The translations under genes were made by a program, and so were the position numbers. This document shows, piece after piece, positions 10,434 to 62,400 of a DNA stretch of 64,000 nucleotides. Position 1 is the stretch's first letter. Each line of letters opens with the position of its first letter. Under the pieces are notes generated by a model. It was not told the origin of the DNA and did no database searches. It saw nothing but the letters and a program-made list of their open reading frames with translations. This stretch comes from Ctena decussata (Eukaryota; Mollusca; Bivalvia; Lucinida; Lucinidae): contig OZ022512.1 in NCBI GenBank assembly GCA_963989385.1, forward strand, positions 25,379,899 to 25,443,898, read 5' to 3'.

Positions 10434-10439
10434 ATCCAG

Positions 10440-11340
10440 CCCTCAAACCATAGTTGGAAACAACTAAGATTACAAATAATCAAGATACAGAGAACATATG
10501 GCCAACCGACTGAGCAGCTTGTTCCCAAAAGGTGGCCACTCAGCAACCCAAACCGAACCAAAAATAATAATAACATACATAAGGTAAAACATCACAGAAA
10601 CTCTGACACCAAAAACAGGCAACAAAGAACCACAACAGAACTACCGCCTTGGAACGGTCAGTAATGAATTACTGGGGGGGGCTTAAATCGATTTTACAGG
10701 CCCAACCTCACCCTCAGTTTCTGAAGTGGTACAAAACATTTAGTTGGTTGTTCGGTTCACATGATAACCCTCTAACTCGTCAATGAATCATCACGGTAAA
10801 CACATAAATCAAATTTCAACACCATGAAGAAGCAAAGACGAGGACTCAACAGATACAACGGGCCGTCTGACAGGTGGAGATCCCTGTCCTGCCAAACAAC
10901 CCCACTGGAAATCTGAAGCAAAAGAAGGTCACCAGTTGAGCCCCGGTGGACCAAGCAACAGACAAAAAGGCTCCGGTCCCAACCAACTAAAATATATAGC
11001 TTTAGGTCGGGGCCATCATAGAGTCTGACGACCGATCCCCCGGTGTGCAATTAAAGAGTGCAGCAAAGCTATCAACCGTGATTGGGTTAATCACTAAGCA
11101 TGCAGACTGTCGCATAACATTTAAATTATAGCCAATACGTTTGTGACGTATTATTATTTTTCGGAATTGATCAGAAAAATCAGTCCTACCCTTAATCTTT
11201 TTGAATTTGTATACTAAGTCACCATAAAATTCAGGTTCCGATAGGCCTTGGTGTAAAAGAAATTTTAATCCGACATCAAATTTTGAAACCAATTCATGGT
11301 GTCTGCGATAGAATTTAGAAAAAGCCTTTCTAAGCTTTCT
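10440..11340. mobile_element. Insertion of about 0.9 kb splitting the LINE endonuclease
   Basis: The endonuclease reading breaks after AVWCNI at about 11345 and resumes near FYIYSREENF at about 10395, so roughly 0.9 kb of foreign DNA lies between. On the minus strand the insert holds an open frame (about 11002-11335) with a protein-like stretch including FDVGLKFLLHQGLSEPEFYG and MRQSACLVINPITVDSFAAL, ending near SDSMMAPT. I do not recognise this family with certainty. An 8-base G run lies at about 10673-10680. No clear terminal repeats or target duplication were seen, and the borders are uncertain by tens of bases. Confidence 0.55.
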
Positions 11341-11344
11341 AAGC

Positions 11345-11648
11345 TTATATTGCACCATACTGCTTCAACACCTACACTATGAAGATCCTTTCTTTCATAT
11401 ACTTTAATATCCTTTGAGATCATAAGTGCTGCACCTCCTCCTCTTTGCTCTTTTCGTTCTGTGGCTATCCAATTCCATGACTTCTTAACACTTTCCTTCA
11501 CTGTATTATCTGGATGCCATATTTCAGACAGGCCAAGTATATGAATTTGCTGCTTTTTGCAAGCACTTTCTACCAAACTGAATGACGTATTCAAAGATCT
11601 CATATTAGCATAAGCAATTTTCATATTTGCACATTCAGCTAAATCCAA
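11345..11648 (-). pseudogene. LINE ORF2, N-terminal part: endonuclease N-half
   Basis: Starts at ATG 11648 and reads MKIAYANMRSLNT, then HILGLSEIWHP, which carries the catalytic Glu of APE-type endonucleases, and RGGGAALMISKDIKVYERKD. It breaks off after EAVWCNI, where the foreign insert begins. This domain nicks the target DNA to prime reverse transcription. The remainder of the domain is intact on the other side of the insert. Confidence 0.82.
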
Positions 11649-11649
11649 C

Positions 11650-12165
11650 CATTAAGGCTTGTCAGCTAAATCCAATCATTAGAACAAACACCACAACACA
11701 TAAACACTTTTCAATATCACAAATCACCAGCCGATCTTTCTGTTTTTAACAGTCTCTGTCGGTACAAAGTTGTATATATACAGTCTCTTTCTGTACTATG
11801 AAATGTAACGAGATCCAAGAAAATCACGAAAAATACTCCTGCTCAAATTGACAACACCTCCAAAAATGTTTGAAGAATAACTCACTGAATTTATACAGTC
11901 CTTGTCTGTACAGTTTTGTTTTCATACAGTCTCTATCTGTACACATTTTTTTTTTTTTTTCCACTTTTTTCACAGTCTCTATCTGTATAGCTTAAAGTAG
12001 CAAAATCACAGAAAGGAAATCAAAGATCCCTCTGATATCATGTTAACCTATTACCAGCACACAAACAAGTTAAAATATCACACACTGAAATAATACAGTC
12101 TATTATCTGCACAATTTTGTTTTACACAGTCTCTATCTGTCAAATAAGTGGTCTATTTCTGTAAA
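11650..12165 (-). repeat. LINE inter-ORF spacer with seven ACAGTCTCTATCTGTA motifs
   Basis: Between the end of ORF1 and the start of ORF2 are seven variants of (T)ACAGTCTCTATCTGTA(CA), at about 11748-11766, 11779-11796, 11893-11913, 11924-11943, 11972-11989, 12093-12111 and 12124-12141. Spacing is irregular. Each copy has short inverted arms (TACAG and CTGTA) around a variable core. The segment is otherwise AT-rich with a poly-T run (about 11946-11960). It has no coding role that I can see. Confidence 0.75.
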
Positions 12166-13235
12166 TTAGCAACGGCTTGAAAGCCGTTCTTTTACAGCAA
12201 TGTACACTGGGCATGAAATTGAACTTGATGGATGGCGATTACCACAATTAACACACTTTTGATCACCTGTACATGAACCTGTATGCCCTTCAGCACAATA
12301 TTCACACGTTTTATCCTTCTTACACAGAAGAGCTATATGGCCAAATTCTTGACAGTTGTAACACCTTGTAGGAGTACCTCTCTTGCTTTGATATGATGTT
12401 ATTCTAATTAACTTCTTGCAAAGGATAATCTTACTTTTGAATAAAGTTTGTTGATCCTCAAAAGAATTGCATGTAATTATTACTATTGGCATTGGTTTCC
12501 CTGTATCCCTATATTTAAGTCTCCTAACATTCACAGCAATCCCTGTTTGTTTTTCTACCTCTGAAGCTACAGTACCAGTGTGAAGGTGAGGCAGAACATT
12601 CTTAAACACACACCTAGGTACTATGGAATTTTCATGAACTGATAACGCTGATCCTCCCTGAAAAGCTTCTTCTGGCCAGTCCTCTTTTAATAACTCAATA
12701 TCTTCCTCCGACTCCGTATGTATTGCAATACCTCCTCTATTCAGAGGATAAGCATATTTTATTTGCACACTTCCTTTATATTTTCTTATTTCCTGCTTAA
12801 TAACTCTACTATTTTGAAAATCACTTGGATTCTTCAAGCCGTCTACAATAATAACCTTTTCAGAGTTTGCATTGTGGTCATTTGAAATCTGTGGCTCCTT
12901 ACACTCAGTGACACCCACCTTTATCTTACTTGACTGCTCATCACTTGACTGACAATCAGGATCTTCCCTTGAAGATAACCTATGAACATCACTGCTGTGT
13001 TCTGAACTGACACTTTTTCCTTTTTTCTCTGATACTTTAGCAACAATGCACTCTGGACAAAGAAAGGGTAGATTTTTGTTCTAAAAATGCCGCAAATTTC
13101 TTTTGTTAAATTTACACAACTGCCATGCCACCACTGACTGCAACTGTCACAAGCTATCCACGCTGGCTTGCCTTTTAATTTCGATCCACAAGGACAAATG
13201 CTAACCGAGGGGTTTGTTTCTTTCTTTTTTCTCAT
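12166..13235 (-). pseudogene. LINE ORF1: PHD finger plus CCHC zinc knuckles
   Basis: Likely start at ATG 13235 (MRKKKETNPSVSICPCG). The N-terminus carries a PHD-type finger: C-x-C, then WIACDSCSQWWHGSC, then a final CPEC that lies in another reading frame, so a single frameshift occurs at about 13065-13085. From there the frame is open to 12166. The C-terminal half has a CCHC knuckle, CYNCQEFGHIALLC, followed by Cys/His-rich segments (CEYCAEGHTGSC, CVNCGNRHPSSSISC). It is predicted to bind element RNA as a nucleocapsid-like chaperone. The PHD finger could bind chromatin, which is an inference. One frameshift is enough to call it broken here. Confidence 0.82.
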
Positions 13236-13315
13236 TTCCAGGCTTCCATTCTCATGAAAACAGGATAAAAACAATAATAATCACTTTGTTTACGGTTGTG
13301 AACATGTCTTGGATA

Positions 13316-13430: not shown

Positions 13431-14125
13431 GACGCCATTCTACAACAGAACGTGGGAAAACCTAAGAAAAGAATTAAAGAAGTATTCCAGGCAGTTACAA
13501 AATGAGTGAAAACGGCGTTAATCATGTAAACTAAAATTTAGTTTTTTCCACATTAACTTAGCAAAGTAGCTCAGCTGTAGACATCAAGGTGTTCGCAGTA
13601 TCCTTGGACAACGCCCGCATCATTAGTTTTCGCGACGATTCTTTGCAGCCATTTCTCGTGTTTTCGTACACTAGACTACTCTACCATAATTGTAAATGGA
13701 AGTGTAGCAAAACTGATGCTGTGAATATTTATGGCTATTTCTTTACTGGCGGGTGAAGTTTGGGGCATAAAGGGCATGGCACTGGGGAAAAGGGGCATCA
13801 TGTTACTATTCGGGAAACCGCCGTGACGTCACAGTAATGGCGGCTCCTTGGATACGGTGAAAACCATCCATAGCAACGCATTGCCAGTCTTACGTGATTT
13901 AGGTGTATTTGAACTTTTAATTATATTTACTCTAATTTTTCGTGAAATATACATTGTTTTTGTTTTATAACAAAAAGTGTAAACTGGTTTTGTCAAGCAT
14001 ATTCCGCAAATTTTACGCACGGAAGCATCAAAAATACATTTTTATGGACTATCACTCTGTCAATATTCGCGCGCGCAATATGTATCTGCCGTGCCAGGCT
14101 AAGACCACAACACATTATGATTAGA

Positions 14126-17310: not shown

Positions 17311-17454
17311 AGCTTTTCACTTGGGGTAGGGGGAGGGCATGCAGAGAGGAGGGGGTAAATACTTGGACGTCAGCACATGAACCAAATAAAGCTCTAATTC
17401 CAACCGATACCTACTGATGCTAATCTGACTTGGTGGGAGAATCCAAAAGCAGGA

Positions 17455-18909
17455 ATGCCCGCCAGACTGTTAGTGATGCGGTATACCATCACTATGGATT
17501 CTTCTCTGTTGTTAGAGTGTTTGCCAGCTGATGACCTCTATAATTTGGGAGGTTCTATTTGCTATGTGATAGTTGAGATCGATGAGATGCAGTGTGGCTT
17601 CATGCCTGGCCGTGGCACTACTGATGCAATTTTTATTGTACGTCAGCTACAGGAGAAGCACTTGGCTACTAACAAGCTGCTCTACATGGCCTTTGTGGAC
17701 CTGTAGAAAGCATTCGATCGTGTGCCACGGGATGTCATCTGGTGGGCAATGCGCAAACTAGAAATTGACGAGTGGCTGGTGCGCTTGGTCCAGTCCATGT
17801 ACCAGGATGTGAGAAGCAGGGTAAGAGTTGGCGATGGGTACAGCGAGGAGTTTGGTGTTGGAGTGGGTGTTCATCAGGGCTCTGTACTTAGCCCGCTACT
17901 CTTCATCATTGTGTTAGAGGCTCTATCCAGGGAGTTTCGCACAGGCTGTCCATGGGAGCTGTTGTATGCAGACGACCTGATGATCAGTGCTGAGTCTATG
18001 GAGGAACTGCTAGTAAAGGTGCAGACATGGAAGTCAGAGATGGAGAAAAAGAGCCTACGTGTGAACATGGGGAAGACAAAGATTCTGGTGTCTGGCATTA
18101 ATCTGGACGTGCTGAAGAAATCTGGAAAGGACCCTTGTGGTGTCTGTCAGACAGGAGTAGGTAGCAATGCAATCTTCTGTGGTGGCTGCAAGCGCTGGGT
18201 GCATAAGAAATGCAGTGGCATTAAGGACCCTTGCGCCCTGACCCTGAGTCCCAAGATGCCTTGGGACTGCTCGGGCCATTGATGAAAGAGAAAATACAGA
18301 GGTTGAGGTTGGAAACGAAAAGCTTGAAGTTGTCCCAGAGTTCTGCTACCTTGGAGACATGCTGTCTGCAGGAGGTGGCTGCGAGCTAGCTGTGATCACA
18401 CGCTGCAAATGTGCATGGGGCAAGTTCCGGCAATTGCTTCCCCTTCTCACAATCTGCCAATTCTGACCAGAGGTCAGGTGTACTCAACATGCGTGAGGAG
18501 TGTGATGCTGCATGCAGCAGATTCTTGGGCCATGAAGATGGATACACTGAACCGTCTCCGGCGTAATGACCGTGCCATGATCCGTTGGATCTGCAATGGC
18601 AAGGCAAAGGACGAAGTTAGCTCAGACTCCCTTCTCACAAAGCTTGGCATCCAGGACTTAGATGTGGTGCTCCGAACCAGTGGGATGAGATGGTTTGGAC
18701 ATGTAGAGCGCAGCACAGGCTGGATTGCAGAAGTACGCAAGCTGAATGTGGTTGCACAGAAAAGACCGGGCAGGCCAAGAAAAACATGGGATGAAGTGCT
18801 TATGAACGACAGAAAGAAGCTATGTATGGATTCCGCTGACCCTCAGAATCGTTCTGAGTGGAGAGGACGCCTTCGAAGAAACTTGTCAAACAAGCCCAAC
18901 CCTCGGTAG
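17455..18909 (+). pseudogene. Reverse transcriptase pseudogene with zinc-finger insert
   Basis: A 5'-truncated non-LTR RT. Visible blocks are CGFMPGRGTTDAIFIVRQLQ, then FVDL, a TAG stop and KAFDRVP, then GVHQGSVLSPLLFIIVLEAL and the catalytic LLYADDLMI. A Cys/His module follows (CGVCQTGVGSNAIFCGGCKRW then VHKKC). After a frameshift near 18240-18410 comes the C-terminal region: VYSTCVRSVMLHAADSWAMK, NDRAMIRWIC, MRWFGHVER and RPGRPRKTWDEVL. A (GAT)n tail follows at about 18935-18955. At least one stop and one frameshift inactivate it. It differs from the LINE at 6.7-13.3 kb. Confidence 0.85.
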
Positions 18910-18931
18910 AGGAAAACAGGGCTTTAAAATG

Positions 18932-18956
18932 GATATGCTGATGATGATGATGATAG
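18932..18956 (+). repeat. (GAT)n tail
   Basis: Short trinucleotide run directly after the end of the RT coding remnant. It is consistent with the 3' tail of that element. Confidence 0.6.
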
Positions 18957-19034
18957 TCACCTTAGACAAATCTGGCTGCTCTAGGTTGTACTACCTCAAA
19001 CTGTTGGATACATGATGTGGTATAGGTATCGTGC

Positions 19035-19860
19035 TGAAGTGGCATACTCGATGATGGGTCTGTCTACAGCCTTGTGGCTCTTGATAGCCTCCTATACCTC
19101 AAGATCTCAAGTCTAGCTGACACATCAACGCTGCAGAGGGACTTGGAGTGGGAACAGGACTGACAGATGTCATTCAACCCCAGCAAATGTGAATTGGTCA
19201 GGGTGACCAAAAGGAGAAATCCAATTGAAGCCGCTTACAAGATCCATGGCCATGACCTAACAATATCCGAGACTGGGAAGTATTTGGGCGTTGCCATTTC
19301 GGAGGATCTCTCATGGAAGGCTCATGTGGATTCTACCACTAAGAAAGTGAACAACAGCCTAGCCTTCCTGAGAAGAAACCTTTCCAGTTGTCCCCAGGAT
19401 GTAAAAGCCCAGTGCTACAAGACATTGGTCCGGCCTGTCATTGACTCCGCCACATCAGCATGGGATCCACACACCACATCATGCAGACAGCAGTTGGAGG
19501 CGGTACAACGACGAGCTGCCCGGTTTGTAAATGGAGACTACCCTACCACAAGTAGCACCTCCCAGATGGTACAGAACCTTGGGTGGCAACCGCTCCAACA
19601 GAGGCGCCAAGATGCCAAGCTCATCATGATGTACCGCATCACCTATGGACTAGTGGACATCCCTGCCTCCAGATTCTTACATCCAACTGGGACATGTACA
19701 AGAGGGTAGGCCCTTCGATATCTGGTACCGTGCTGCATGACAGACGTCTTCCTGCACTCCTTCTTTCCCGCGGGCATTAAACTTTTGAACAGCCTACCAG
19801 AGTATATCCCCATGTCAGAGACCCTTGAGGGCTTCAAGAGGGGTCTGGCAAGTCTCCATT
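19035..19860 (+). pseudogene. CR1/Jockey-type RT, C-terminal fragment
   Basis: Begins just after the catalytic motif: the frame reads DGSVYSLVALDSLLYLKISS, then LEWEQD followed by TGA where Trp is expected. It continues MSFNPSKCELVRVTKRRNP, GKYLGVAISEDLSWKAHVDS, VRPVIDSATSAWDPHT, QRRAARFVNGDY and LGWQPLQQRRQDAKLIMMYR. This is the usual thumb and C-terminal region of CR1/Jockey-like ORF2. A frameshift near 19700 precedes the last conserved segment (LHDRRLPALLLSRGH). It is truncated at its 5' end against the preceding element. Confidence 0.82.
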
Positions 19861-19964
19861 AGCCCGTACAGAACTGTTTTTACAGATTTTAATCAGCAAC
19901 AGTTGTTTTATCGTCACTTGTTCGTGCCTCACCTCAGCCTTGTACATAGTTCAAGTAGACAATG

Positions 19965-20530
19965 CTCCAGAGTGGGCCCTGTACGGGTCCGTGGAAACAC
20001 CCCAAACCACCCCAAACCTCTACCAAACCACCCCAAACCAGCCTCCCCAGATTCACATCTGCCCCCTGTCCCCTCCACACACACACCAACACTGCTCCCA
20101 CCCATCCCAAACAGTATCTATATAGATTCAAAATAAAAAGAACACTTCAATAAGTGATTGCCCATGTACGTATGTATCTCTTTTAATAACTTCTTAAATA
20201 TTAACAAAAAAAAATATAATCTCAGTATAATAAAGCAAATTGTGTGTGTGTGGGGGGGGGAGGTGGCGACCATTTATACCACCCTCAACCAGCCACCCTG
20301 GGTACAAACTAGAACCCCAGCCCTCGCGCAGTGACATGCTTATTTAAAGTAAGAAGGGTGCGGATGGAAGGAAAAAACTAATTGACCTCAAATGTTGGTG
20401 TCTTGGTGGGGGGAGGGGGGTGGGGTTCTAGTTTGTATCCAGGGAGGCTGGTTTGGGGTAGTATGAAAGTGGTTTGGGGTGGTTTGGGGTGTTTCCAGGG
20501 ACCGGCCCTGTACTGTACAGCTGTACGGGA
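19965..20530. repeat. Inverted TGGTTTGGGG/CCCCAAACCA repeat pair
   Basis: Plus-strand CCTGTACGGGTCCGTGGAAA with several CCCCAAACCA units at 19975-20060 reappears as the inverse (TGGTTTGGGG units, then GTTTCCAGGGACCGGCCCTG) at about 20447-20512. The left arm lies in the 3' UTR-like tail of the preceding RT fragment. The arms enclose about 390 bases with a GT run and G-rich tracts. It may be two tails of one family inserted in opposite orientation. Confidence 0.6.
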
Positions 20531-27133: not shown

Positions 27134-27309
27134 GATAGGGGATCAAGATCTTCTTCACATGGATCAAAGCATCACTCACCAACTGGATCAGTGAAATCTG
27201 AAGGCTCTAAACATTCAAGGTCAGAGTCTCGCTCAAGGTCACGATCATATTCTAGATCAAGGTCAAGATCACATGGAAAACACTCGAGGAGAAGGAGGTC
27301 TTATAGCAG
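27134..27309 (+). CDS. tra2 exon 2: RS domain 1
   Basis: Acceptor TTGCAG, donor GTGAGA; enters in phase 0 and leaves after two bases of a codon. Encodes [15 protein letters not shown], then [20 protein letters not shown] and further Arg/Ser dipeptides ending RRRRSYS. The upstream frame stays open but without Tra2-like sequence, so the true start is in an earlier exon. A G16 run lies about 50 bases upstream. Confidence 0.93.
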
Positions 27310-30400: not shown

Positions 30401-33400
30401 TACAGATAAATGTTACTCGAAAACATTCATGAAACATCAGTTTCGCTTTTGCCTAAGTAAAAGTAAGATTTATATCCCTTTATATGCAATGCAATCCATA
30501 TTACTTTGACCATTGTCAGTAAACCACCAGTGTTGATGTTAAACACTAATTAGCTAAACACCCTGGTTTCCTTCATAAAAAGGGCATTGCTGGCATAAAT
30601 CCGTACGTGGTCCAAACCGGAAACTTGCGTTTTTACTGGCTTCAAGTATACATGTAGTTGGTTTGCTGCACCCCTTCCTGAAAGAACATTCTGATCAGGG
30701 TCTGCCCTGTTGTAGTTTGCCATTTCACCAAAATTTAATGTTTCGTGGAACAATTCAGGACAGAAAAATTCCAGTTGTGTACTTTAAGCTTTAGAATTGC
30801 AACCGGTAAGCTGTCTTTTATGCAGTAATAGTTAGTTAAGCATAAAGAAGTTTAATAACCTTGTGGGTTGATATCTGATTTTATACAGTTTAAGTGGGTG
30901 TGGTGGGAAAGGCACCAGTTTGATATATGAGCCGCGACGTGAGAAAACCAACAATGTGGCTGTGCGCCCAGCGCAAACTCAGATCAGCCTGGGTATCCGC
31001 CCAGTCCGATCAGATTCTTCGTTTTGCGCTTAAAGGGTAGCTAAGGGTCTTAGCTACCTCCATGCGGACAGCGAAGACTCTGATCAGACTGGGCGGATGC
31101 CCAGGCTGATCTGAGTCTGCGCTGTGCGCACAACCACATTGTTGGTTTTGTCGTGTTGTGGCTCATATATTCTTATGGTTTGGAACTAAAGTAGTAAGAT
31201 TTCCCTTTACAATAATAGTGTTCCTTCTGATTTCAGGTCCAGAAGCAGAAGTCGACGACGCTATTCTAGGTCCCGATCCCGCAGTCCATACAGACGCTCT
31301 TCTAGGAGGTAAGTTGTACCTTACCGCAAATGCTAACCAGAGCTCTAGATAAGAGGGAGTATTTGGTGATAGTTAGGGTTAATTTTCGTTAATTCTTCAT
31401 TAAACCATCTGTTGTGACCTCTCATCTAAACCGTCTCGTCAAGACGGTTCAGATGAGGGGTCACAACATATGGTTTCGATGAGAATTAAGAAAAATTATC
31501 CTTAATTATCATCAAATACTCCCTCTTATCTAGAGCTCTGCTAACAAAAAAGACACAGATTAGAGTCCTTGTTGACAAGTATATGAAACATTCTGATCAG
31601 CCTGCAATAATGGACAGCCTGATACAGTTCTTCTGTATATTTGATAAGAATGTCACCATGACAGAGCATTTTGAAGGTTATTCAGATTTCAAAGCTCTTC
31701 CTTAAAACATTAAGAAAAATTGTATCTTGATACATATTGTATCAAGAAGCAAGTATGGTTATGTATTATGTATCCTATTGTGACCTCTTATAATTTCTGG
31801 TGTTTGGACTTGGCTAAAATTTTATGATCGAGCATTGGTTTATAAAATTGAGTAATTATCGAATATCAAGATCGTTAGAATCATTTTCTATGGACTTACT
31901 TCCAGCTTCAAAATAGCATTAATTGTGCTGTACAGTGCTCCACAGTATATACATATAAAAAGGTGATACATCGATTACCGTTATAATCCTATAAAACACC
32001 CGGGGGCATAGTATCTTGCAAAAGGGGGTGTTATTTGGAGCCTAAAGTGTAGTAAATCATCCACTGCTAAAATATCTCTAATAAGCAATATAAATGGGAT
32101 AGGTCTCTTCAAAGGAAGTAATTCTACTAGTTTTGTTAGGGGTCAACTCTTAAAGGGAAGAATTTGCTCCTCTAGGAGCAAATCTTATCCTCTAAGAATA
32201 GACCTCATTTCAGAGAGCTACCTTATCCAACGAAGCAAACAGGAGTTTATGCACCATAATGTTACATTATTTTCGGAAAAGGGGCAGGGGGTCTTTTATA
32301 AGGATTAATTGGGTATGCCATTTTTGATTGATTAAGCACTCTTTTGCTGCAAATGAGTTATGATCGAGTAACCTTAACTGGCAAACTTCTAATAATTTGT
32401 ATTCTTTTCAGATCCAGAAGCAGAAGGTGAGTGAAATGTAGTATTTTCTTTAGTTTGTATAATAAATGCCCATAGTGGACACTTCAACAGTAAGAAATAC
32501 TTCTTGAGCTGTGACATAATGAAACCGACAAAGTGGTATGTGCGCCCAGCATAGACTCAGTTCAGTCTGGGCATCTGCCCAGTTTGATTTGAGTCTTTGC
32601 TGTGGGTATGGACTTAGCTCAGACCCGTAGCTAACCTTTAAGTGCACAGCAAAGACTTTGATCAGTCTGCGCGGATGCCCAGGCTGATCTGAGTCTTAGC
32701 TGGGGCACATGCCACTTTGTTTGTTTTGTCGTGTCGAGGCTCACTTATTGCCAATATCCAGAGCTCCAGATAGGATTGAGTCTTAAGAGACAATTTTTGT
32801 TCATACCCTACAAAACAAACGTGTGTTTTGACCCTTCATAGAATCACTTCAGTGAGGTAGTTATAACAAGGGTTCACAGCCTGTGTGTGTAGGTAAGAAA
32901 TGAGCCACGACACGACAAAACCAACAATGTGGTTGTGCACCCAGCGCAGACTCAGATCAGCCTGGGCATCCCCACAGTCTGATCAGAGTCTTCCCTGTCC
33001 GCATGATGGTAGCTCAGACCCTTAGCTACCCTTTGAGCTCTTAACGAAAAGTCTGATCAAACTAGGCAGTTGGCAGTTGCCCAGGCTCATCGGAGTCTGC
33101 CCTCAGCCGGGGCATCCCCCCAGTCTGATCAGAGTTTTCCCTGTCGGCATGATGGTAGCTTAGACCCTTAGCTACCCTTTGAGCTTTTAACGAAAAGTCT
33201 GGTCAAACTAGGCAGATGCCCAGGCTGATCTAAGTCTGCGCTGGGTGCACAACCACATTGTAAGTTTTCTCATATTGCGGCTCAAATAAGACAAAAATCT
33301 CACAGAACTATCCTGAAAACACAGCCTAATATTTGAAAATATAGATTTGTCAGAAATGTGCATTCAGGTGTCATATTTATATGAGCCACGACACAACAAA

Positions 33401-36400
33401 ACCAACAATGTGGTTGTGCGCCCAGCGCAGACTCAGATCAGCCTGGGCAGCCGCCTAGTTTCACCAGAATTTTCGTTGAGCTCAAAGGGTAGCTAAGGGT
33501 CTAAGCTACCTCCATGCGGACAGCAAAGACTCTGATCAGACTGGGCGGATGCCCAGGCTGATCTGAGTCTGCGCTGGGCGCACAACCACATTGTTGGTTT
33601 TGTCGCGTCGCGGCTCAATTATATTAGAAGAAAATTACTGTGAGGCTTAGTGCACCAGCAAGTGTGCACATATGATTCGGGTGCTACACAACACTTTGGA
33701 AGAACTTGTACATTTATAAGAGCAATTTTCAACTTGGGCTCGTTGCATTGGAAAAAATATTCATGTCTTCACTTTGAAAAAATTGTTACTGTTATGCTTT
33801 AAGGCCCGATTTCACGTCACAGTTATAACTCGTATTAACTAGTCCGTGATCTATTTTACCTTAGGGCACAATGTAAAATTTTGGTGTTCCGAATGCTAAT
33901 CCATGTACTAAGTTTGACGTGAAATCGGGCCTAAAACATGAATATACTAAAATGCAGGGTTTTCCCTCACACAGGATTCTGCGTCATTTACTCCCAAAAT
34001 CATTCCTGGGACTCCCAGAAAAAAATCTTGCGAGTCCTCTGGGACTCTCAGATTAAGGGTACAACATAAGCATGGGGTTATGAATTCTGGTGTCTGAAAT
34101 GGTCGCTATTGCTGAATATGGTTAAAGAATCAAATATTTGTTATTTGTTTATAGAATAAAGCACAGAATACCTATTTTCAAACACTTCAGACAACATTAT
34201 TTTTGTTAAATAATAGAACTGGACCCTAGATTTACTGCATGGGATCCTTAAAAACATTAACAAAAATGAGGTTCCAAAGGACTCCTCATATTCTGAATTG
34301 AGGGAAACCTCTGAAAATGGTTTGTTTATTTGTGTTATTAGTCGAGGTGGTGGTGATTATTACAGTAGCAGAGGAAGGAGAAGTAGAAGTAGGTCACCAA
34401 TGTCATCACGGCGGAGACATACAGGAAATAGGGTAAGTTACTTTAACCCTTTTTAGACCGGATACCCGTTTTGGGGACATTATACAAACAGTGCAGACCC
34501 AGTTCAGACGCCGCAAAACGCGGCGTCTGATCAGGGTCTACATTGTTTGCTTACAGGAATTTCTGTGCAAAGTACAATAAAAGTTATAATATTCACCAGA
34601 AACCCCTAAAACTAGTAATGGGATTATCTGAATGATAAGAATGGACAAGTCCACTGGTCGAAAAAAGGGTTAAATACTTCTACTTAATGTGAGACTAGAG
34701 ATTACTATGCCCAATTAAAGGTTATGGCCTGAACTGCTGATACCAGTCCTGTTTTAAAGTTTTTCTTTTTTTTCTGTATTGTATTTGAATACCTTTATTT
34801 ATACATCTTTATTTTTTTTCTGAATCTGTTGCTGCCCAGAAAAAAGGCATTAGAATTATGGACTACACAGCAATTTTCTCATATGACCATTTATGCACAA
34901 CCTCTGGCATCATTCTCTGCATGTCACTTTCTAGTTTTGAGCTCATGGTGGTACCAGCATGGCAGATGCATAAATATGATCTCAATGCATAACACAAATA
35001 TGTCAATTTCAATTAAATAAGACAATTTAGCCATTAAGCCATACCTCAGAGCCCATTTGTTGAAAACTAATGATGTTATTTGTTAACTAAACATCAAAAT
35101 TTCAAAAATATTACCCGCAAAAAAAAAAAAAAGACGATATTTTGCCGAAAAAATGAATGGAGCTTAGCATTGCAAAAGCTGTTCTGTCACATTTCCAGCA
35201 AAAAATATAAAGACATTTGATTTTATTGGTACCAGAAGACTTACATATTCTAAGCAACAACTTTATTTAGCTACGGCCAAGATGTTTGCCACATAGTACC
35301 CTTTCACAGTAAGATATTACCAGTTCTATGAAAATAAACTGAAATTAGTGTGTTGAAAACTTTTTATATGATTTTCTATTTAAGACCGCGTTTACATGAG
35401 CAAAGTTTCTATGTCACAGAAACAAAGAAAGAATGCCAAACATTTTCTGTTTACACGGAGCAAATTATTTGTTCAAAAAGAAAATGTGACATAGAATCTT
35501 TATCAAACAAATTTTGGCAATGAAATTTTTGCTTCAGTGTTTATTTGCAAATATTATTTGTCAAAGCTACCTGCAGCAATGAAACAAAATCTTTATTACA
35601 TTTTCCACGCTTATAGCAAAGTTCTTTGTTACATAAACTTTAGCGAAGTTCTCCCTTTACATGGACATATTTAATTTATCGAAGTTACTTTACCATATAT
35701 ATTTGTCAAAGAAACATTGTCATAATTTTGCATTTACACGAGCGCATTTTTCTGTGGCAAACAATCTTTGTCACAGAAACTTTGCCTGTGTAAAAGCAGC
35801 TTTAGTGACACCACAAAACCAACAAAGTAGCATGTGCGCCCAGGGAAGTTGGTCATGTTATGTTGTGGCTCATTTTCGGATGTAATTTACCCGCAAAAGG
35901 AACTTTGCATTAGATTAAAAGGTAACTATGCTTGGCAACACACATGAAAAGGTAAAAGGTTTGGTATGTTGGTTGGACACATCAGAATTCTCTTTTACTT
36001 ATGGCCATTTTATCTTCCTTTTAGGATGACCCTGAACCGTCAAAATGTCTAGGAGTGTTTGGTCTCAGCTTATACACACAGGAGAGAGATCTTCGAGAGG
36101 TCTTCAGCAGATACGGAACTCTGGATGAGTGTAACATTGTGTATGATAGACAGGTAACTGACATGAAGTAATGCCTATGTTGTAACTGTTCGTGACTTAC
36201 ATGTTTCAGGATTTATCGCATTTGTCATTTAAAGTTTGACAATTCATAGCTCCAGATAAAGATAATTCACAGATAATTTTTGTTATTTCTCAACGAAAAC
36301 ATAAAATCATCTGAGGCATCCCAGCATATGCTTTGACAGTTCTAATGAGGGATCACAACATATGAGCCGCGACACGAGAAAACCAACAATGTGGTTGTGC

Positions 36401-39400
36401 GCCCAGCACAGACTCAGATCAGCCTGGGCATCCGCCCAGTCTGATCAGAGTCTTCGCTGTCCGCATGAAGGTAGCTTAGACCCTTAGCTACCCTTTAAGT
36501 GCTTAGTGTAGAGTCTAATCGGACTGGGCGGATGCCCAAGCTGAGCTGAGTTTGCGCTGGGCGCACGACCACATTGTTGGTTTTCTCGCGTCGCGGCTCA
36601 AATGTTTTCATTCAGAAATAAGGAAAATTATCCTAGAAACCCCACCTTATCTGGATCAGTGTCAGATACTTCAGGACTCAGTTGCCATCAAAATCAAAAT
36701 TTATTATACTTATAAACTAAATCTCTTCTGTTAATCAGAAAATACTCATGGCAATTTTTATGTGCCCAGTTTTGTAAAAAAAACAGATGTACTATGTCAT
36801 AGGGCTGTCCATCCCTCTCTAAACATTCTTGTGGGTGCCATAGCTCAGTAACCGTTTGGGATATCTTCATGAAACTTTATAGCTTTGTACAAGAGGTGGC
36901 AAATTTTAACAGTGGCAAACAAAAAAAAACAAAAAAAAAACTAATAATGATAATCATTGTGTACCACATAGGTAAAATTTTGTTTCTTTTTCTCTTTCAG
37001 TCTGGAAGATCGCGGGGATTTGCCTTTGTATACTTTAGAAATGTAGACGATGCTATAGAGGTATGTAAGACTTTAGTTCTCTAAATTCTTGACCTAAACT
37101 TGCTGTTAAAGTGGATGGATAGATCTCCATGCTTAACCACTATTTTTACGAGAGGGATGGACTTTGTGAATTCGTGTTTGCTTACTTGAAAGGTGTAACT
37201 CTTCCAAAATGGGTGAGCAAATTCTTTTACAGTTTGCGCCACATTTGAAGCAAGAGAGGACTTCTAACTAGATGGAGATTTAAATGATCAGAACTTGTGT
37301 TTTTGATTTTGCCTCCTTAAGGCTGAATCGTTAACCCTTTCATTACTCAGAAATAAACAATGCGAATTTCAATAAGTTGGCAATTAAGTGGACAAACTCT
37401 GACAGTGCATTAATGCTTTCCGTATTATGCCAGTTGTAACCAGCATAATTCACTTAGATTGATGCTAATATAGTCTAATTATAGCTGCTAATAAATATAC
37501 AACTATTAAAAGCAGAAAATATCATGCCTCATCATTTGCTTTACAACAGTAAAAGATGATATAATAACACTGCTGGAGGGCTGGAAACATCTGCCAGTTC
37601 TTAATATAGATGCTACACATGGTTTTCAGCTTGCTGGAAATGTAAATGAGGTGAGAGGAGACACATCAAATGTTATGAATGATGCATTTTGTCCTGCTGC
37701 TGTCCATATTTCAGTGTCGCTGCAAGTAGGTCTTTGCTGACTTAACAGACTTTCCCATGACCACCCTTACATGGAACTGTATGCTCATAACTGCATCCAA
37801 TATCATTACAGTTCAAAACTGATTAAAGTCATAAAAGCTAGGAGACAAGAAATACCAATGCAGGCAGTGAAGGAGCAGTCTGATCAGGGTCTGCTTTGTT
37901 TTGATTGAACCAGCAGATTTATAAAACATACAGTAATAAAGTAAACTGGCTTGGCGTTGCCTCCATATGTCCATGGTTCTGTGTAACTCTAAAAACCGAT
38001 TAGTCAGTCTGTAAACAGACCTGTCATGATCATAAAGCGGTAGAGACCATTACAATTAATGGTAAGATGGAGATAAAATACAGTTCTTACTGTGGGTCCT
38101 TTAATATTGTAGGCCAAAGAAAGATGTGTAGGAATGGATATAGATGGCAACAAAATTCGCTGTGATTTCTCGATCACGCGGAGAGCCCACACTCCCACCC
38201 CCGGACTTTATCTCGGCAGACCTACTTATGGATCGTAAGTTGAATCTTTTATATTGAACATACCTCGAAATATACATGTTTTGTATATTTCTGACAGGCG
38301 AAAGACAGATGCTCTGGAATAGAAATCGATGGGAGGAGTATTCGAGTGGATTATTCAATAACAAGGAGAGCACATACCCCAACACCCGGTATTTATTTGG
38401 GAACACCAACATAGTAAGTCATTATTGGTTGCCTTTTCCTCTCGGTGACAGCTGTTTTGTGTTAAAATAAATCAGTTCAAAGCTATTATTTACCAGACAT
38501 TAGCAACATAAATCAGGTAATAAAAAAAGACTAACAAGGGCTCAGTTGCCCATGGCCCCTAAACTTTGGGCTGGGCCACACAATGTCGGAAGAAAATTGC
38601 CATATTAATGCAGCTTTATGATTTACAGCAGTCTTCAGCCTCTGAAGAAAAGGTTTTTCCCAGTTAATTGTTCTGGAGTTTTCTTGGTAATAGTGGTGAC
38701 AGTTGAGATAGCATTCGATCTTCAAACAAGTTTGCCTACGTACTGGTCAGACAATGGAATGCTGCATTTCTGATACTTCTGAAAATTTGATGGAATATTC
38801 CCAGCTGACTGAGGAAAAACTGTCTTATTAAAGGTTGGAGGCAGGCACTGTAGTAGAACGTATACTTTTGATACTACAAGAGCAGCAGATAAAAGAGGGT
38901 ACTGCGGATAATTCAAAGATAATTTTTCTTATTTCTCAATGAAAACATAGGTTGTGACCTGTATGTTTTTATGCAGAAATATGGAAAATTATCCCTAAAT
39001 ATCCCTGTTACCCTTCTTATCTGGAGCACTGGTACAGCTGAGTTACTACACAGTGACACTGAGGAAGAAGTACCTTTGCAGAATCAAAGAGCAGTCTTAT
39101 CAGAGTCCACTCCATTTTTTTCTGCCAGCAAAAATTTTGACTCTTCAACCAGTAGTAAAATCATAAAATCAGCATTTTCAAATTTTGGGATAACTCTAGT
39201 TGTACACTTAAACCTTTTCTGTCATTTAGTCAAAGGGAAACAAATTTAGAATTTCCTGGTAGTGCTGTGGAAGACACTGCCATCCAAAAAGGAGTCAGGT
39301 CCTTAAGGAAAGAATTTTCTTCCTTTAAAAGTTGATCTAGACTGAGAAGGGAGAAAATGGCAGAGTTTCTTTTCCTGAAATTGTACCCATTCACCTGAAG

Positions 39401-42400
39401 ATATCCTTATATGAGTCGCAACACAAAACCAAAAAGAGGCATGTGAGCCCAGAAAAATCTAAGATTAGACTGGACGGCTGGGCTGATCAGAATCTTGGCT
39501 ATGCACTTAAAGGGGAGCTAAGGGAATCTTCGCTATGCACTTAAAGGAATGCTAAGGGTCAAAGCTACCTTCATGCTGACACTAAGACTCTGATTAGATT
39601 GGCAGATGGCAGATCCCTATGCTGATCTTGGTCGTCATATGATGCATATGCCTTTTTGTTGTTTTTGTCATGTTGCGGCTTATTTAATAGAAATAAGAGG
39701 GATTGGGTGATGACTAGGAATAATTTTAGTCCCATCTCTATATAAACGAATGCTGTGACCCCTATTAGACTTTGGGGTCAGAATATTAGATGAGAAATGT
39801 CAATAAAGTGGCATGTGCTCCCACCAAAGACTCAAATCAGATTGGGCATCTGCCCAGTCTGATCAGAGTCTTTGCTGTCAGCATGGAGCATCGAGATAGC
39901 TTAAAGGCTTAGCTACTCCTTAAGCGACTCTGATCAGACTAGGTGGATGTCAAGGCTGACCTGAGTCTTTGCTGGGCGCACATGCCACTACATTGGTTTT
40001 GTTGTGTTAAAATCTGCTTAAAATCTGAAACTGATAATTTCATTTCAGTCGTAACAGTGACTATAGCAGCAGTTATGGTGGTGGAGGAGGCGGTTATGAG
40101 CGAGGGGGATATAGGAGTAGAAGGTCCCCATCACCATACAAAAGAAGTCGGTATTCAAGATCACGGTCAAGGTCATATTCACCTCGTAAGTATAGTATTG
40201 AGTTTAATACAGTGAGAGGTCGAGGTTTTGTGCAATAGTGTAGCAAGACAGGCAAAGAGACACCACTTACAATCAGATAAACATCAAAATAGTGCAATAG
40301 AGATAAGATTAAGTGACATCTTTGAAACAAAATAATATACATAAAATGAGTTTATTTTTGACATTAATTGAATTTATCATATGACGTAGCATCTGAGAGT
40401 GTAATAAAGTCATGCATTAAAAACGATAATCCACTAGTGGATTAAATATGCAAATTACGTCCTAATGTTATGCGTTGACGTCCATAAAACGTCGCGTTTT
40501 CTAATGGCGGAATCATGACATTTTTATTGCAAAATTTGCTAATAAAATGCGATTTAGTGTCATATGATAAATAGAATCTTGCATTCATGCTCCTGTATTA
40601 CTGAATTTATTAAACTCGGTGGTGAAACGATAAGATGCTCGGCAGAGCCTTGCATCTTTATCTTTTTCCCCAACTCATTTAATAAATTCAGTAATACATG
40701 AGCCTCGCATCTTATCGTTTCACCAACGAGTTTAATAAATTCGGTAATACAGGAGCACTCCGCATTCATGCTCCTGTATTACTGAATTTATTAAACTCGT
40801 TCGTGAAACGATAAGATGCTCGGCAGAGCTTCGCATCTTATCTTTTTCCCCAACTCGTTTAATAAATTCAGTAATACATGAGCACGCATGTAAGATCCTC
40901 TATTTGTTTATAGTTGAGACTGGAAACACTAGAACTGTTCTTACAACTGTGAACATACTTTCAGTACATGCAGAAATTACACAGATTTTAACTTGAGCTT
41001 GTATCTGGTCTGGTCAATACAAATCTAGAAATTTTACTCTGAGAAACAAAGAATACAATAGTGGAAACAGGAGTTTTCAAATATTAAGTCTCTGGAATTT
41101 TTGTTTTTCAAGATGGCTCCAGATTTCTTACTGATATTGTCACAGATTCTCATTGAAGAACTTGAAGTTCAAATACCTTTCAGAGATAATCTTTTTAATG
41201 TCACAGATTCTTTATTCTGTGGTTATATATGACACTGTGAGAGACAAATTAGGCAAATTCAGAATTTATGTACAAACTAGAATTTCACCACCAATTTTGT
41301 CCCAGCTGCTGCAAGCAGATGCAATATAGGAGTTGGATTTCACATTAGTTCAATCGTATGAGCTGCAACACAAGAAAACCAACAAAGTAGTTGTGCAGCG
41401 AGCGCATTCAGATCAGTCTGGGCATTCGCCCAGTCAGATCAGACAGATGCCCAGACTGATCTGAGTCTTTGCTGGGAGCAATGCCACTTCGTTGGTTTTG
41501 TCGTGTCGCGGCTCATATGGTTGCTAACACTAGTGACCACTCTGGTATGTTAGGGTGGCAGTTGTGACTTAGAGTTTCCCAGAATTCTTGTCCAGTGTTT
41601 GGTGGCTGTTTTTTCCTTGTCCCTTACCCTATGTTGTTGTCGTCTTTTTCTTTGACAGGTCGCTATTGAGGTATAACTTGCGGAACAAAGACCTTCAGTA
41701 GATCATCATACAAACCCATTGATCATCATTGTAAATCATTATCATCATCGGTGTTTTTCCTGTTGCCTTGTTGAGATCTTGTTGATTTGCAGAGCTCAAA
41801 AATAAGTCCAAAGTGGGGGCTATGCATTTTCCTGTTTTCAGAGCTCTAGATAAGAGGGAGTATTTGATGATAATTAAGGATAATTTTTCTTGTTTCTCGT
41901 TGAAACCATATGTTGTGACCCCTCATCTGAACCGTCTCGACAAGACGGTTCAGATGAGGGGTCACAACATACATTTTAATGCAGAGTTAACGAAAATTAT
42001 CCCTAATTTTCACCAAATACTCCCTCTTATCTAGAGCTCTGTTTTGTATTAAAAGACAGGAGTTCTAGAAATGGAGACTAATTTTTTAACAGTAACCATT
42101 ACAAGTAGACACATAATTTTTTTAACAGTAACCATTACAAGTACATGTAGACACATCTTGCAACAACTCATAAATACTTGGGCTCGGTTGTTTAAAGCAT
42201 CTATAACTCGAGAAAGTTGTTTCTTAGGATTTGTTAAGTCCTACATTATAAATACAGTCAAGTGTTAATACTTTTTGCCAAAAAAAGGCAGTGTTTTTCA
42301 CTTACACTATGTTAGAAATTTTAACATATTGTTGACTAATGAAACGATGTCGTTAATTTTGAACAGCTGGGCACTGTTCAACATCATATCACTATGAATG

Positions 42401-56400: not shown

Positions 56401-59400
56401 TGCGCCCAGCGCAGACTCAAATCAGCCTGGGCATCCGCCCAATCTGATCAGAGTCTTCGGTGTCTGCATGGAGATATCTTAGACCCTTAGGTACCATTTA
56501 AGCGCTTAACAATGATTCTGATCAGACTGGGCAGATGCCCAGGCTGATCTGAGTCTGCGCTGGGCGCACAACCACTTTGTTGGTTTTCTCGTGTCGCGGC
56601 TCAATTCTGTGCAGCACTATTTGAATGCATATTTATAGGATCTTACAAAGCAAATAAATATTTCCAAATTTCAACACTGTAAGATCTACAGATATTTCTG
56701 CCAGATCTGCTAGTATACCAATAAATAGGATAACGTAAATGTGTCCATCTGTCCATTTTTCAGTTCAGTTCAATTCTAACAACGTTCCCCAAGTGGCCCA
56801 GTGGTACGTAACCATAGTTGCACGCAATTGGTGCTGTGTGTCCGTCCACAGATATTTCTGCAAGATCTGCTAGTATACCAATAAATAGGATAGTGTAAAT
56901 TGTCCATCTCTCCATCAGTATTGAAAAATTTTAAATAAGAACAATATTTTACCTGAAAGTTGTGTTAGGTGGCAATAAGCTCTGGTAATCCATTTCTTCT
57001 AGTAACAGAACCTCTGATGTGAACACATTAATTCTTGCTGAAATAGAACGTTAACTTCAGTCTTCACTACTTAAAGACAGCTGAGCTGTGATTTTCTAAA
57101 CAAATAATTATTCTCAAGTCATTTAATTCTGTTTTTTTGAGAAGAATAAGCATCCTGTGACAGAAACACAACAAGAAAATTTAACCCTTTAGAGACAGAG
57201 AAAAGTGATTACATTGAGACACTCCCACAGGTTGCAGGTGAGATATAAACTCACATGATGTGTTAAAAAGCAAGTTTGTGAGAAAAAAATACCAAAATGA
57301 TGTGGACAGAAATGTGGATAGGAAAAGCTTTAACAAAGGTCAGCATTTCGCTTTATGAGGTTTGCCTGATAATGTCAAACACCGATCCAGAGGCACTTCT
57401 GAACCAAAATTTACTGTCAAACAGCCATGAAAGAGTTAAAACCATACCTCTCAGCAAACTACATGTTGGTCTGACGTAAACTGAAATCCAGTTTCTTGCT
57501 ATTTCACTGATGGTTTCCTGCTCAACACCATACACTGACTGGTACTCGAGTTTTGGTGAAACATACAAATATCCACTCTGAAAGAAAAGAATTTATCTAC
57601 AGTCCAACCTGTATTAAGCAAGCACCTAAGGGATAATCAAAAGGTGCTTGCTTAGGCAGGGGCTTGCTTAATACAGGTAAAATTCAATGTATTTGCCTTT
57701 TTCGGGAACTGAATACATGCTTGCTTAATACCGGTTGCTTGCTTAATAGAGGTGGCCACTAAGACGGGTTTTGCTGTATTTCAAGCCAATGTTATGACAA
57801 TTTACTTAAGAAATAACTCATTTTTTCGATGTTCATGGAAGTATGAACACAATATGAACACACATGACCCCTGAAGGAGCAATCTAGTCTGGGTCTGCAT
57901 AGTTTGCTTAGACCTTTCTGTCCCAGTATATAGAATTTTTACTGTATTAAATTTTTCACACTCATCTTCCAGTTATGATTATTCTAATTTGCATACACGC
58001 ATTCAGACTTCACACTCATGAATTATGACCATGATATTTTCACACTAATCATCTGCCTCTATCTCACTATATATACCTTATGCTTGGCATCCTTGATATT
58101 TCCATGCTGACTACATCTTATCATGACATGGATTCCACCAAGATTCCACTGGGTATAGATAACGTTACCAGAGACTGGGAAAGCCAGATTAGTCAGACCA
58201 GACTTGGCAGCAAACGATTCTATAATTCAAACTACACATAATGACACAGTGATTTTTAAATAATCTGATAATGAATTATGTTTGGGTGACTTATATGTTT
58301 GGGTGTAGTTTCAAACTACACATAATGGCACAATGATTTTTAAATAATCTGAGAATAAATTATACGTTTGAGTGAGTTTTGGTTCAGCCATTTTCATCAG
58401 CAATGATTGTACCTATGCTTGTATGCACTGCACGTCCTTGCAGGTATCAATGACATCATGGTGACATCATAATGTCACCATGATGTCACTGATACCTGCA
58501 AGGACGTGCAGTGCATAGAAGCATAGGTATGGTGACAGTATTACATCACCATGGCATCACTATGGTGGCATCATTAGCTGCAAGGGTATGCTATGAACAT
58601 CAGCATGGATATGTCATGCAGAAACACATAAGCTGTGACACAACAAACCCAAGAAAGTGGCATGTGTGCCATTCAAAGACTCAGATCAGCCTGGGCATCA
58701 GCCCAGTCTGATCGGCCTTTGATATGCACTTTAAGGGTCTCTAAGGGTCTAAGCTACCTCCATGCCCACAGTAATGACTCTGATTAGGCTGGGTGAATGC
58801 CCAGGCTGATCTGAGGGCTGAGGTCTTGGGTGGTGCATATGCCATTTTGTTCGTTTTGTTGTGTCGCGGCTCATGGAGGTGTTCCTATACACCTTATTGT
58901 ATTCCGATATTTAGAATTATAATAGTATTTAAGTGAGTTTTCAAATAAAGTTCTCTTTGTACAAAAGAAGCCACGTTTCACTAGCTGCTTACAAAATTCC
59001 TAAATTTACGAACATTTTATTGCAAGAATACAGAATACTACAAAGGAAAGTTCATCAACTTTAATTTTATCATCTTAGTTTCTTTAAGGAATTCTGATGT
59101 CAGTCAGTTTGATATATCAAATGAGCTGGGACACAAGAAAACCAACAAAGTGGCATGTGTGCCTAGTGAACACTCAGATCAGCCTAGACAGTGACCCAGT
59201 CTGATCAGAGTCTTTGCTGTGCTTAAAATGTAGCTAAGAGTGTAAGCTAGCATCATGCTGATAGCAAAGACTCTGATCAGGCGTGGTGGATGCCCAGGCT
59301 GATCTGAGTCGGCACTGGGTGCACATGTCACTTTGTTGGTTTTCTGTTGTCAAGACTCAAATGTCTGAGTCTGTAAATTATTCTATGAACAATATTCAAA

Positions 59401-62400
59401 AGCAAACTTACAAAGAAGTACATACAGTGAAACACAGGACAGACTATTGCAACTATTTCTATTACCTTGTGCAGACTGAGAGCTGGAAGGTTTCAACATC
59501 TCCTTCTGCATGTTTAAAATAGAATCAAGATTTGTAGATGATTCACTCTTGCCAGAACCCTGCACCGGTGGAGTTATAGTTGGCACTTCTGTTGAATTCT
59601 TTATTACATTAGATCTCACTGTTTCACTATGGACTTCCTCTGCTCTTGGTGTGCCTTTTGCGTGTGTATCAGATACTACATTCTTTATTCCTTCTGTCTT
59701 TGAGGCTATGTTATTCTCAGCAACATTGTCTGTTCTTACAAACTGGTCCATATTTTCACTAGTTTTACAGTTGGTTTTCTCACTAGTTTCATCAAACTGT
59801 TTAGTGTCACTTGACTGTTTTCTTTCATTTGATAGTCCAACATCACCTGACTGCTTCACTTCACTCAACTCTTTATCATGTTTTTCTTTGATTTGCTTCT
59901 TGAGTTTTTCTGCCAGTTCCTTTATCTTGTCAGCTTCAGCTGTATTGTCAGATTTCTTAATTTTTGGTGGCCTTCCTTTCTTCACAGGTTGTCTGTTGGC
60001 AGTAGCAGGTTTCCTTTTCTCTGCAATTATGTCCTTGACAGACTGGCTGGTTCCTGGTTGGCTGGTTTCCATCTCAGTTTCTTCTTCATCCTCTGACTCT
60101 ATAACATTGGGTTTCCGCTTTTTTCGCACCACTGGCAAGTCAGAATCTACTTCTGTAGATGTTTCTATAAATATAATAGCATTCCTAAATGTCATTTCAT
60201 AGAAAATGCTAGACAGCATATCATTTGAGCCGCGACACGACAAAACCAACAATGTGGTTGTGCACCCAGCGCAGACTCAGATCAGCCTGGGCATCTGCCC
60301 AGTCTGATCAGAGTCTTCGCTGTCCGCATGGAGGCAGCTTAGACCCTTAACTATCCTTTAAGTGCTTAGTGAAGAGTCTGATCAGATTGGGCGGATGCCC
60401 AGGCTGATCTGGGTCTGTGCTTGGCGCACACCCACATTGTTGGTTTTCTCGTGTTGCGGCTCATTTATTTTAAAGTCATATATTTCCCTGCTTTTTCTGT
60501 TTGGCAATGGAAGTAGCAAAACGTCTCCTTCATATGGATACATGTATGCAATCCTACTTGCTCTTAAATATAAACTTTTACTTAACGTCAATTTTTTCTA
60601 TATCAAGTTATTAACAATGACAATTAAAATGTCTTTCTTTAGTCAAAAGGCCTTATTCTTTCTTTGAACAAGTGGTTGCAAAATATAATCTCTGCCCAAG
60701 TGGTGTTTTCAGTTAGAACAGTTGAATGACAACCTGTCATGGAAAGAGCTGTTTATTTGGTTTACTGTGCTTGTTTTTTGTGAAGTATTGTCAATTTATG
60801 TATCGGTATATACTTCTTTCCCTTTTGGTTTTGAGGGTAGGATCTGGGATCTGATTGTATTAGTTACTGATCATTGCCTATCTTTTTACTTTCTGTATGT
60901 ATCTGAACCTTCAGATCTATTTTCTTTTATCTTTATCTGCTTTGTTTTTAGCATTTGTCATACCATTTCACAACAGTTTTATTTCCATGAAACATTGCAT
61001 TCATAACAAAGAAACTTTTGTGAATATTTCCTGACTTATAATTACAGAGAGATATATTTGACTTAAAGATGTACCTTTGTTCTGTAAGGAGTCCAGACTG
61101 TGTCTAGTAACTCTTCTATCAGGTCTGGGACTGGTTTTATGTTCTTCATGTTTATCACTTGAAGATGATCTACTACGGGTCAGCCTAGCAAGAAATCATT
61201 GTAATACATCTTAAACAAATAAGGAATAAACTAGCATGATTCTTACTCTTAATATTTTACTCCAGGTAATACTATAACAACCCCAAAAATACACCAGTAC
61301 CATAACCTTCACCCTATCCTTTAAATATCTGTCATGAATATTTTCCCATCTTTGGAGAAGTCTATATTAACTCTCACAGTGTATTTTATACACCTTATGG
61401 CTAAATTCTTACCAACAGTTCCAATCATGATCAAACAGCTTCTTTAGGAACAGACACTGATGCTTTAAATATCACAGTTGTAAATACCACAGTTAAATCT
61501 TCATAAATGAGCCGCGACATGTGAAAACCAACAATGTGGTTGTGCGCCCAGGGCAGACTCAGATCAGCCTGGGCATCCGCCCAGTCTGATCAGAGTCTTC
61601 GCTGTCCGCATGAAGGTAGCTTAGTCCCTTGGCTATCCTTTGAGCGCTTAGCAAAGTGTCTAATCAGACTGGGTGGCTTCCCAGGCTGATCTGAGTCTGC
61701 GCTGGGCGCACAACCACATTGTTGTTTTTCTCGTGTCGCGGCTCAAATATGCCAACTTAGGCACAGCTCCAAAGGCTGTACCTAATATTAATGCCAATAG
61801 TTTTTATTACCAATAAAATGAGCCGCGACACGAGAAAACCAACAATGTGGTTGTGCGCCCAGCGCAGATTCAGATCAGCCTGGGCGAATGTCCAGTTTGG
61901 TCAGACTCTTCATTAAGTGCTCAAAGGGTAGCTAAGGGTCTAAGTTACCTCCATGTGGACAGTGAAGACTCTGATCAGACTGGGCGGATGCCCAGGCTGA
62001 TCTGAGTCTGCGCTGGGCGCACAACCTCATTGTTGGTTTTGTCGTGTCGCAGCTCAAATAAGCTTTTCCTTCAAGCTTTATTTTCTTTGATGTACTCATG
62101 GCTACCAATGCACATACCATACGCTTTTTAAAATAGACAATAAAATAAAAAAACTTCCAATATTTTATAAGTACCTAATATTTTCCTGCAATTCTTTGTT
62201 TTTCACCATAATTTCACTGTGTCTTCTTCTTGTACATGGACCAACAGCTTGTGTATCTTGTGCAACTATGTTCCTTTCAGTCTTAGCTTCTGTCAAGTCT
62301 GAACTTGCATTACCATCATCAACATTGCTTTCCTCCTTTGATATATCATTCTGTGAGTGTTCATTTCCCCTTGACAGTCTTGTTTTGCGTCTTGTCTGAA

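Follow-up and report, generated by a model that had tools for sequence, protein, structure and literature searches.

Can one tra2 gene supply two versions of its RNA-binding surface by choosing between two exons? Tra2 regulates splicing broadly and takes part in sex determination in insects; swapping the exon for a strand with which its single RRM contacts RNA would offer a simple means of changing its set of targets. The question arose in a 64-kb window (the whole stretch of DNA analysed) of the bivalve Ctena decussata. An initial annotation had described there two adjacent exons of 122 and 116 bases, 63 bases apart, each encoding RRM beta4 plus the HTPTPG linker, which proved right to the base.

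The plus strand of the window carried a tra2 gene, recognised by its reading frame, its exon borders and its resemblance to Tra2. Its exons were placed on these same grounds from the genomic sequence. The translated model had the hallmarks of Tra2: one Tra2-type RRM, the HTPTPG linker and RS regions on either side. With either exon in place, the RRM found human TRA2B chains (2rra, 2rrb, 2kxn) as its best PDB matches (A form, E 1.5e-39, 137.9 bits; B form, E 4.9e-40, 139.4 bits). Both forms passed the Pfam RRM_1 cut-off (A, 65.6 bits; B, 68.6 bits). The parts of the model are as follows:

13502..13525, plus strand: tentative first coding exon (MSENGVNH), with a weak donor, GTAAAC
27134..27309, plus strand: RS1 exon, from the translated gene model
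31237..31308, plus strand: RS exon 2, from the translated gene model
32412..32426, plus strand: RS microexon of 15 nt, placed on splice-site and frame grounds
34342..34432, plus strand: RS exon 4, from the translated gene model
36025..36153, plus strand: RRM1, constant exon with the first half of the RRM, from the model and the human TRA2B match
37001..37060, plus strand: RRM2, constant exon upstream of A and B, ending in phase 0, from the translated model
38113..38234, plus strand: exon A, the first copy and by comparison the derived one, RRM beta4 and linker, 40 residues plus TC
38235..38297, plus strand: spacer intron of 63 nt between exons A and B
38298..38413, plus strand: exon B, the second copy and by comparison the mollusc-type one, RRM beta4 and linker, 38 residues plus TA
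40049..40185, plus strand: C1, constant exon downstream, Gly-rich region and RS2, from the translated model
41659..41668, plus strand: last coding piece (...SPRRY), followed by the stop TGA at 41667-41669

The first coding exon was tentatively proposed on its likeness to the MSENG starts of the protein matches P0005, P0009, P0019 and P0020. In the RS1 region, the 15-nt microexon (ATCCAGAAGCAGAAG) leaves the frame intact whether it is included or skipped.

Exons A and B both had AG and GT borders, with GTAAGT as the donor of A, and neither length (122 and 116 nt) was a multiple of three. As annotated, their entry and exit phases were identical: each is entered in phase 0 and ends on two spare bases (TC in A, TA in B) of a codon that the exon at 40049 completes. 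With either exon by itself, the translated model stayed open to ...SPRRY. With both, it read ...GSRKTDALE and stopped seven residues past the codon spanning the A/B junction, at bases 23-25 of B. With neither, it read ...ES and stopped at the second codon of C1 (GAG TCG TAA, with TAA at 40052-40054). These translations agreed with the early stops that had been annotated for joint inclusion and joint skipping. A message keeping the 63-nt intron also met an immediate stop (TCG TAA). The message is readable through only with exactly one of A and B, and the claim that exactly one must be included held, as the frame lock leaves no other productive choice.

If messages with both exons or with neither were spliced, they would be expected to go to decay, because their stops lie 91 and 131 nt, respectively, upstream of the next exon junction. 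An alternative built on the first of these stops is that A serves to switch the gene off. Normally skipped, it would be joined to B when Tra2 is abundant, with frameshift, stop and decay as the result, and the protein made with A alone would matter little. The position of the stop early in B fits this, and so does precedent: TRA2-beta is listed as self-limiting via splicing and decay, and TRA2A exon 2 is linked to decay (PMC6547761). However, a poison exon carries its own in-frame stop, whereas A and B were each open alone and only their combination stopped. Joining A to B would also require removal of the 63-nt intron.

That intron was examined together with the other splice signals, using approximate consensus weights for splice sites and branch points. 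The spacer was 63 nt long, the other eight introns of the model 847-3927 nt. By eye, it had no AG from its fifth base to the acceptor. Its best branch-point candidate, CTGAC, left 3 nt before exon B, and the next seven of the eight best candidates found by scanning lay 9-42 nt from the A donor. Below roughly 50 nt, the complexes on donor and branch point are considered to collide (PMC7969005). The A donor and the B acceptor would be hard to use together, because the usable candidates lie within ~42 nt of the A donor, under this ~50 nt spacing. In OGDH, a short intron between exons 4a and 4b, with branch points under ~50 nt from the donor, enforces exclusivity (PMC7969005). OGDH encodes a metabolic enzyme, and its branch points were mapped, whereas those of tra2 were only scanned for. 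By analogy with OGDH, the 63-nt intron may exclude joint use of A and B sterically. This is made less certain by flies, in which introns of ~60 nt are routinely spliced.

Of the ten acceptors, that of A scored lowest, at the 86th percentile of every AG in the window (the rest lay at 96-100); its donor ranked last among nine (score 2.2; C1, 2.3; B, 3.2). Because of this weakest acceptor and lowest donor, B would be chosen by default and A only under some regulation. A weak acceptor would also suit an exon that is skipped until the gene is to be switched off, but the enhancer count gave no lead for that, with one AGAA in A and one in B. A and B are diverged tandem copies of a tra2 exon, and we regard it as probable that they are mutually exclusive, with B as the predicted default and A as the regulated copy.

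Competing RNA structures in the introns, of the docking and selector kind, might choose A or B in place of the short intron. A complement of 13/14 nt was present between the upstream intron (37347-37360) and the end of the spacer (38281-38294), but equal or better pairing arose in 9/60 shuffles upstream and 17/60 downstream. Three whole duplexes were matched or beaten in 43, 39 and 28 of 60 shuffles. No intron pairing above the shuffles was found in this one genome, and a choice by RNA structure appears very unlikely. A duplication that carried the intron along was also considered and rejected, with direct matches between spacer and upstream intron of only 9 and 8 nt.

In tblastn searches of the 64-kb window, A and B found each other (E 5e-17 and 4e-17), and neither exon found a third copy. 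The match of 28/38 residues was recomputed and came out the same. Identity per codon position was 33, 32 and 12 of 38 (first, second and third). Third positions were unlike at 26/38 codons, which ruled out an assembly duplicate or a recent copy, and 19 of the 28 shared residues used different codons. In a Nei-Gojobori comparison of A and B, pS was 0.77 (saturated, beyond correction) and pN 0.18. None of the ten A/B residue differences fell in the 17 columns that were invariant across the relatives (36 rows: all 39 matches minus P0001, P0002 and P0039); random placement would give this with P = 0.0007. As A and B were the queries that collected these rows, the set leans towards A/B likeness. 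The saturated pS, the pN of 0.18 and the keeping of all 17 invariant columns indicate that coding selection acted on both copies over a long past period.

Drift was simulated with A free and B restricted to synonymous changes (seven mutation loads, 400 runs per load). At every load, 0/400 runs gave at least 24 third-position differences together with at most 12 residue changes and no stop. Low loads hardly reached the observed third-position divergence. Loads of 100-120 per branch did, at a mean of 30-31 residue changes and 1.5-1.6 stops (observed, 10 and 0). When a late loss of constraint was simulated, with 15, 20 or 30 free mutations at the end, 48%, 16% and <1% of runs, respectively, had at most 10 residue changes and no stop; these runs averaged 20-23 third-position differences, below the observed 26. 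Any free drift of A is confined to roughly its last 15-20 substitutions. Long selection on both copies, originally claimed from their wide third-position differences, was thus borne out by the substitution rates, the simulations and the invariant columns. An exon that only switches the gene off needs no kept protein, whereas A keeps 17/17 invariant columns and has few residue changes compared with drift; we consider this role for A unlikely.

Relatives of the two exons were sought in protein searches. The B segment as query returned 36 proteins at E <= 0.001, and B-like sequence was present in Ruditapes, Dreissena, Haliotis and other named molluscs. Two matches, P0001 and P0002, had 100% identity to B. 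P0001 covers RS exon 4 through B to C1, is identical across RRM1, RRM2 and B, and matches at 147/152 positions from RRM1 to its end; its contigs are <=1243 nt. P0002 covers RS1 to the end, and its longest contig is 916 nt. Because these contigs are shorter than the 4.2 kb from RRM1 to C1 here (36025-40185), P0001 and P0002 are to be read as spliced messages or retrocopies, each with the B-type exon alone. The end of P0001 (SPRKYMCINDFNT) resembles a read-through of the C1 donor in the window, which favours P0001 as a transcript from the gene itself.

In the window, the frame stays open past the C1 donor (40186-40241; RKYSIEFNT...), and the P0001 contig ends in a similar C1 read-through, RKYMCINDFNT. 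An alternative Tra2 C-terminus through intron retention after C1 is possible.

The A segment as query gave 9 matches, six of them already among the B-query matches. The remaining three, P0037 (Owenia), P0038 and P0039 (Macrostomum), were about as near to A as to B. No A-type protein was among the 9 matches, in a database that displays one sequence per 90%-identity cluster; an A form might for that reason hide in a cluster with its B sister. The clusters of P0005 (Ruditapes) and P0009 (Dreissena) hold seven sequences each. A short-fragment protein search was empty even for B fragments and, with no positive control, says little.

Against a mollusc-type consensus built from 16 rows (9 named, 7 others), A departed at 10 positions and B at 3. 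The A residues V180, N187, L206 and R210 were present in 0/36 relatives (all 39 matches minus P0001, P0002 and P0023). By this comparison, B is the mollusc-type exon and A a derived copy. The initial annotation had aimed its doubt at the second copy (its exon 8b, our B), and here it was misplaced: B is the conserved, mollusc-type copy with spliced-size contigs, and the question therefore moves to the use of A (8a).

A tree was calculated from 38 columns and 33 rows, leaving out P0028-P0035 (nematode-like) and P0039. In the free tree, A fell outside a ten-row group containing B, with weak support. Three constrained groupings were not rejected: p-AU was 0.315 for A joined to B, P0001 and P0002, 0.422 for A joined to nine B-like rows, and 0.544 for A joined to Owenia, P0038 and human. 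With none of the three rejected, dating of the duplication by this 38-column tree was dropped.

The greater distance of A from the consensus, its four residues absent from the relatives, its weakest acceptor and the A-type protein not found among the A-query matches would all suit a fading relic of a once-used alternative exon, with B alone in use. Yet the frame of A is open throughout, its borders are AG and GTAAGT, its phase is correct, all 17 invariant residues are in place, and any free drift is limited to roughly the last 15-20 substitutions, so that we hold a relic to be quite unlikely. We infer exclusive splicing of A and B as the best reading, and the animal would likely make two Tra2 forms, one mollusc-type and the other of a kind that the searches did not turn up.

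The residues exchanged between A and B, in human numbering, are 177, 180, 182, 183, 187, 188, 191, 193, 206 and 210; the linkers read GRPTYGS and GTPTY, that of A being two residues longer. At position 193, A has F and B has Y; both keep R190. In the structure of human Tra2-beta with (GAA)2, R190 touches A3G4 and F193 touches A5 of GAAGAA (PMC4615370). The same source describes the mutants Y193A in Tra2-alpha and F193A in Tra2-beta, and effects of R190A that differed between the two proteins (PMC4615370). The annotated change of the DF/DY site in beta4 gained weight from this placement, with the F/Y exchange at the counterpart of human residue 193, which contacts RNA. Among 36 relatives (again minus P0001, P0002 and P0023), 34 had Y at position 193 and two, P0038 and P0039, had F; these two share C at 191 with A. 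The A form may grip RNA differently, with F/Y at 193, the neighbours 187, 188 and 191 and the linker changed and the invariant residues kept. An altered RNA preference of the A form is plausible.

Human TRA2A (Y193) and TRA2B (F193) parallel B and A, respectively, in beta4, as two genes and not two exons of one gene. We offer as a tentative and rather doubtful idea that a single tra2 gene provides an alpha-like (Y193) grip as well as a beta-like (F193) one, that a tissue-, sex- or stress-dependent switch reprograms its targets, and that the frame lock and the 63-nt intron check total Tra2. If true, one bivalve gene does by exon choice what vertebrates split over two genes. A and B are also a natural pair for testing the effect of F versus Y at 193.

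Tandem duplicated, exclusive exons are already known (U2AF1, OGDH), and tra2 seems to be a new member. The nearest in logic is U2AF1, likewise a splicing-factor gene, whose swap lies in the UHM, an RRM-like fold. Its exons Ab and 3 in vertebrates are tandem duplicated and mutually exclusive, and both or neither, unproductive as in the tra2 pair, lead to stops and decay (PMC5224494). U2AF1 differs as a vertebrate case with seven changed residues, whereas the tra2 swap takes in RRM beta4 and the linker and is predicted from genomic DNA. With it, tra2 would join U2AF1 among genes for splicing factors in which exclusive exons vary the RNA-binding domain of the factor itself.

Among bivalves, exon 10 of oyster AOX is duplicated, with a conserved second copy and a first copy that diverged near functional sites and is dominant under air exposure (PMC5589949). 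It is a tandem duplicated exon of the same polarity as in tra2. However, the AOX exon is terminal and carries a stop, so that both copies are present in the long form; the two are not a frame-locked internal pair, and AOX does not bind RNA. The crustacean and insect tra2 genes resemble this one in having several splice forms; in the parts of the sources consulted, these differ in exon 3 or other RS1 parts, the N-terminus, the last exons and stop-bearing exons, and not by a duplicated RRM exon swap (PMC7363937, PMC3068122, PMC6593557). For the pearl mussel, one tra-2 cDNA is described in the consulted part of the report (PMC8298206). The terms 'transformer', 'tra2' and 'tra-2' are absent from the main text of a study of sex-specific splicing in the Manila clam (PMC9803972). 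A shrimp paper matched for tra2 was set aside, as the exclusive exons there belong to fruitless. Among the literature matches listed, with subscription papers mostly outside the scope, no description of duplicated RRM exons in tra2 was recognised.

Repeat-family copies of at least 60 nt were present in 6/9 modelled tra2 introns; the region around A and B (36606-38876) carried none. A short recurrent element, whose ends looked inverted on inspection by eye (GAGCCGCGAC...GTCGCGGCTC), occurred in 5/9 of the modelled introns. Its copies lie at:

30922-31170
32500-32748
32895-33289
33379-33622
36357-36605
39805-40018
41434-41518

The last intron (40581-40851) had two 90-nt copies, 90% alike and 181 nt apart, around CTCCTGTATTACTGAATTTATTAAACTCG. 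Elsewhere in the window, the minus strand carried Ser/Lys-rich long frames of another gene (59383-60276 and 62165-64000), with no Pfam domain above the cut-off. It also carried a non-LTR retrotransposon (6789-13280), whose long open frames encode an endonuclease, an RNase H and a reverse transcriptase (RVT_1 E 4e-31); a frame upstream in this element looked zinc-knuckle-like by eye and had no Pfam match. A second reverse transcriptase lay in pieces on the plus strand (17398-20136), where the frame 17707-18279 encodes RVT_1 followed by a PHD finger.
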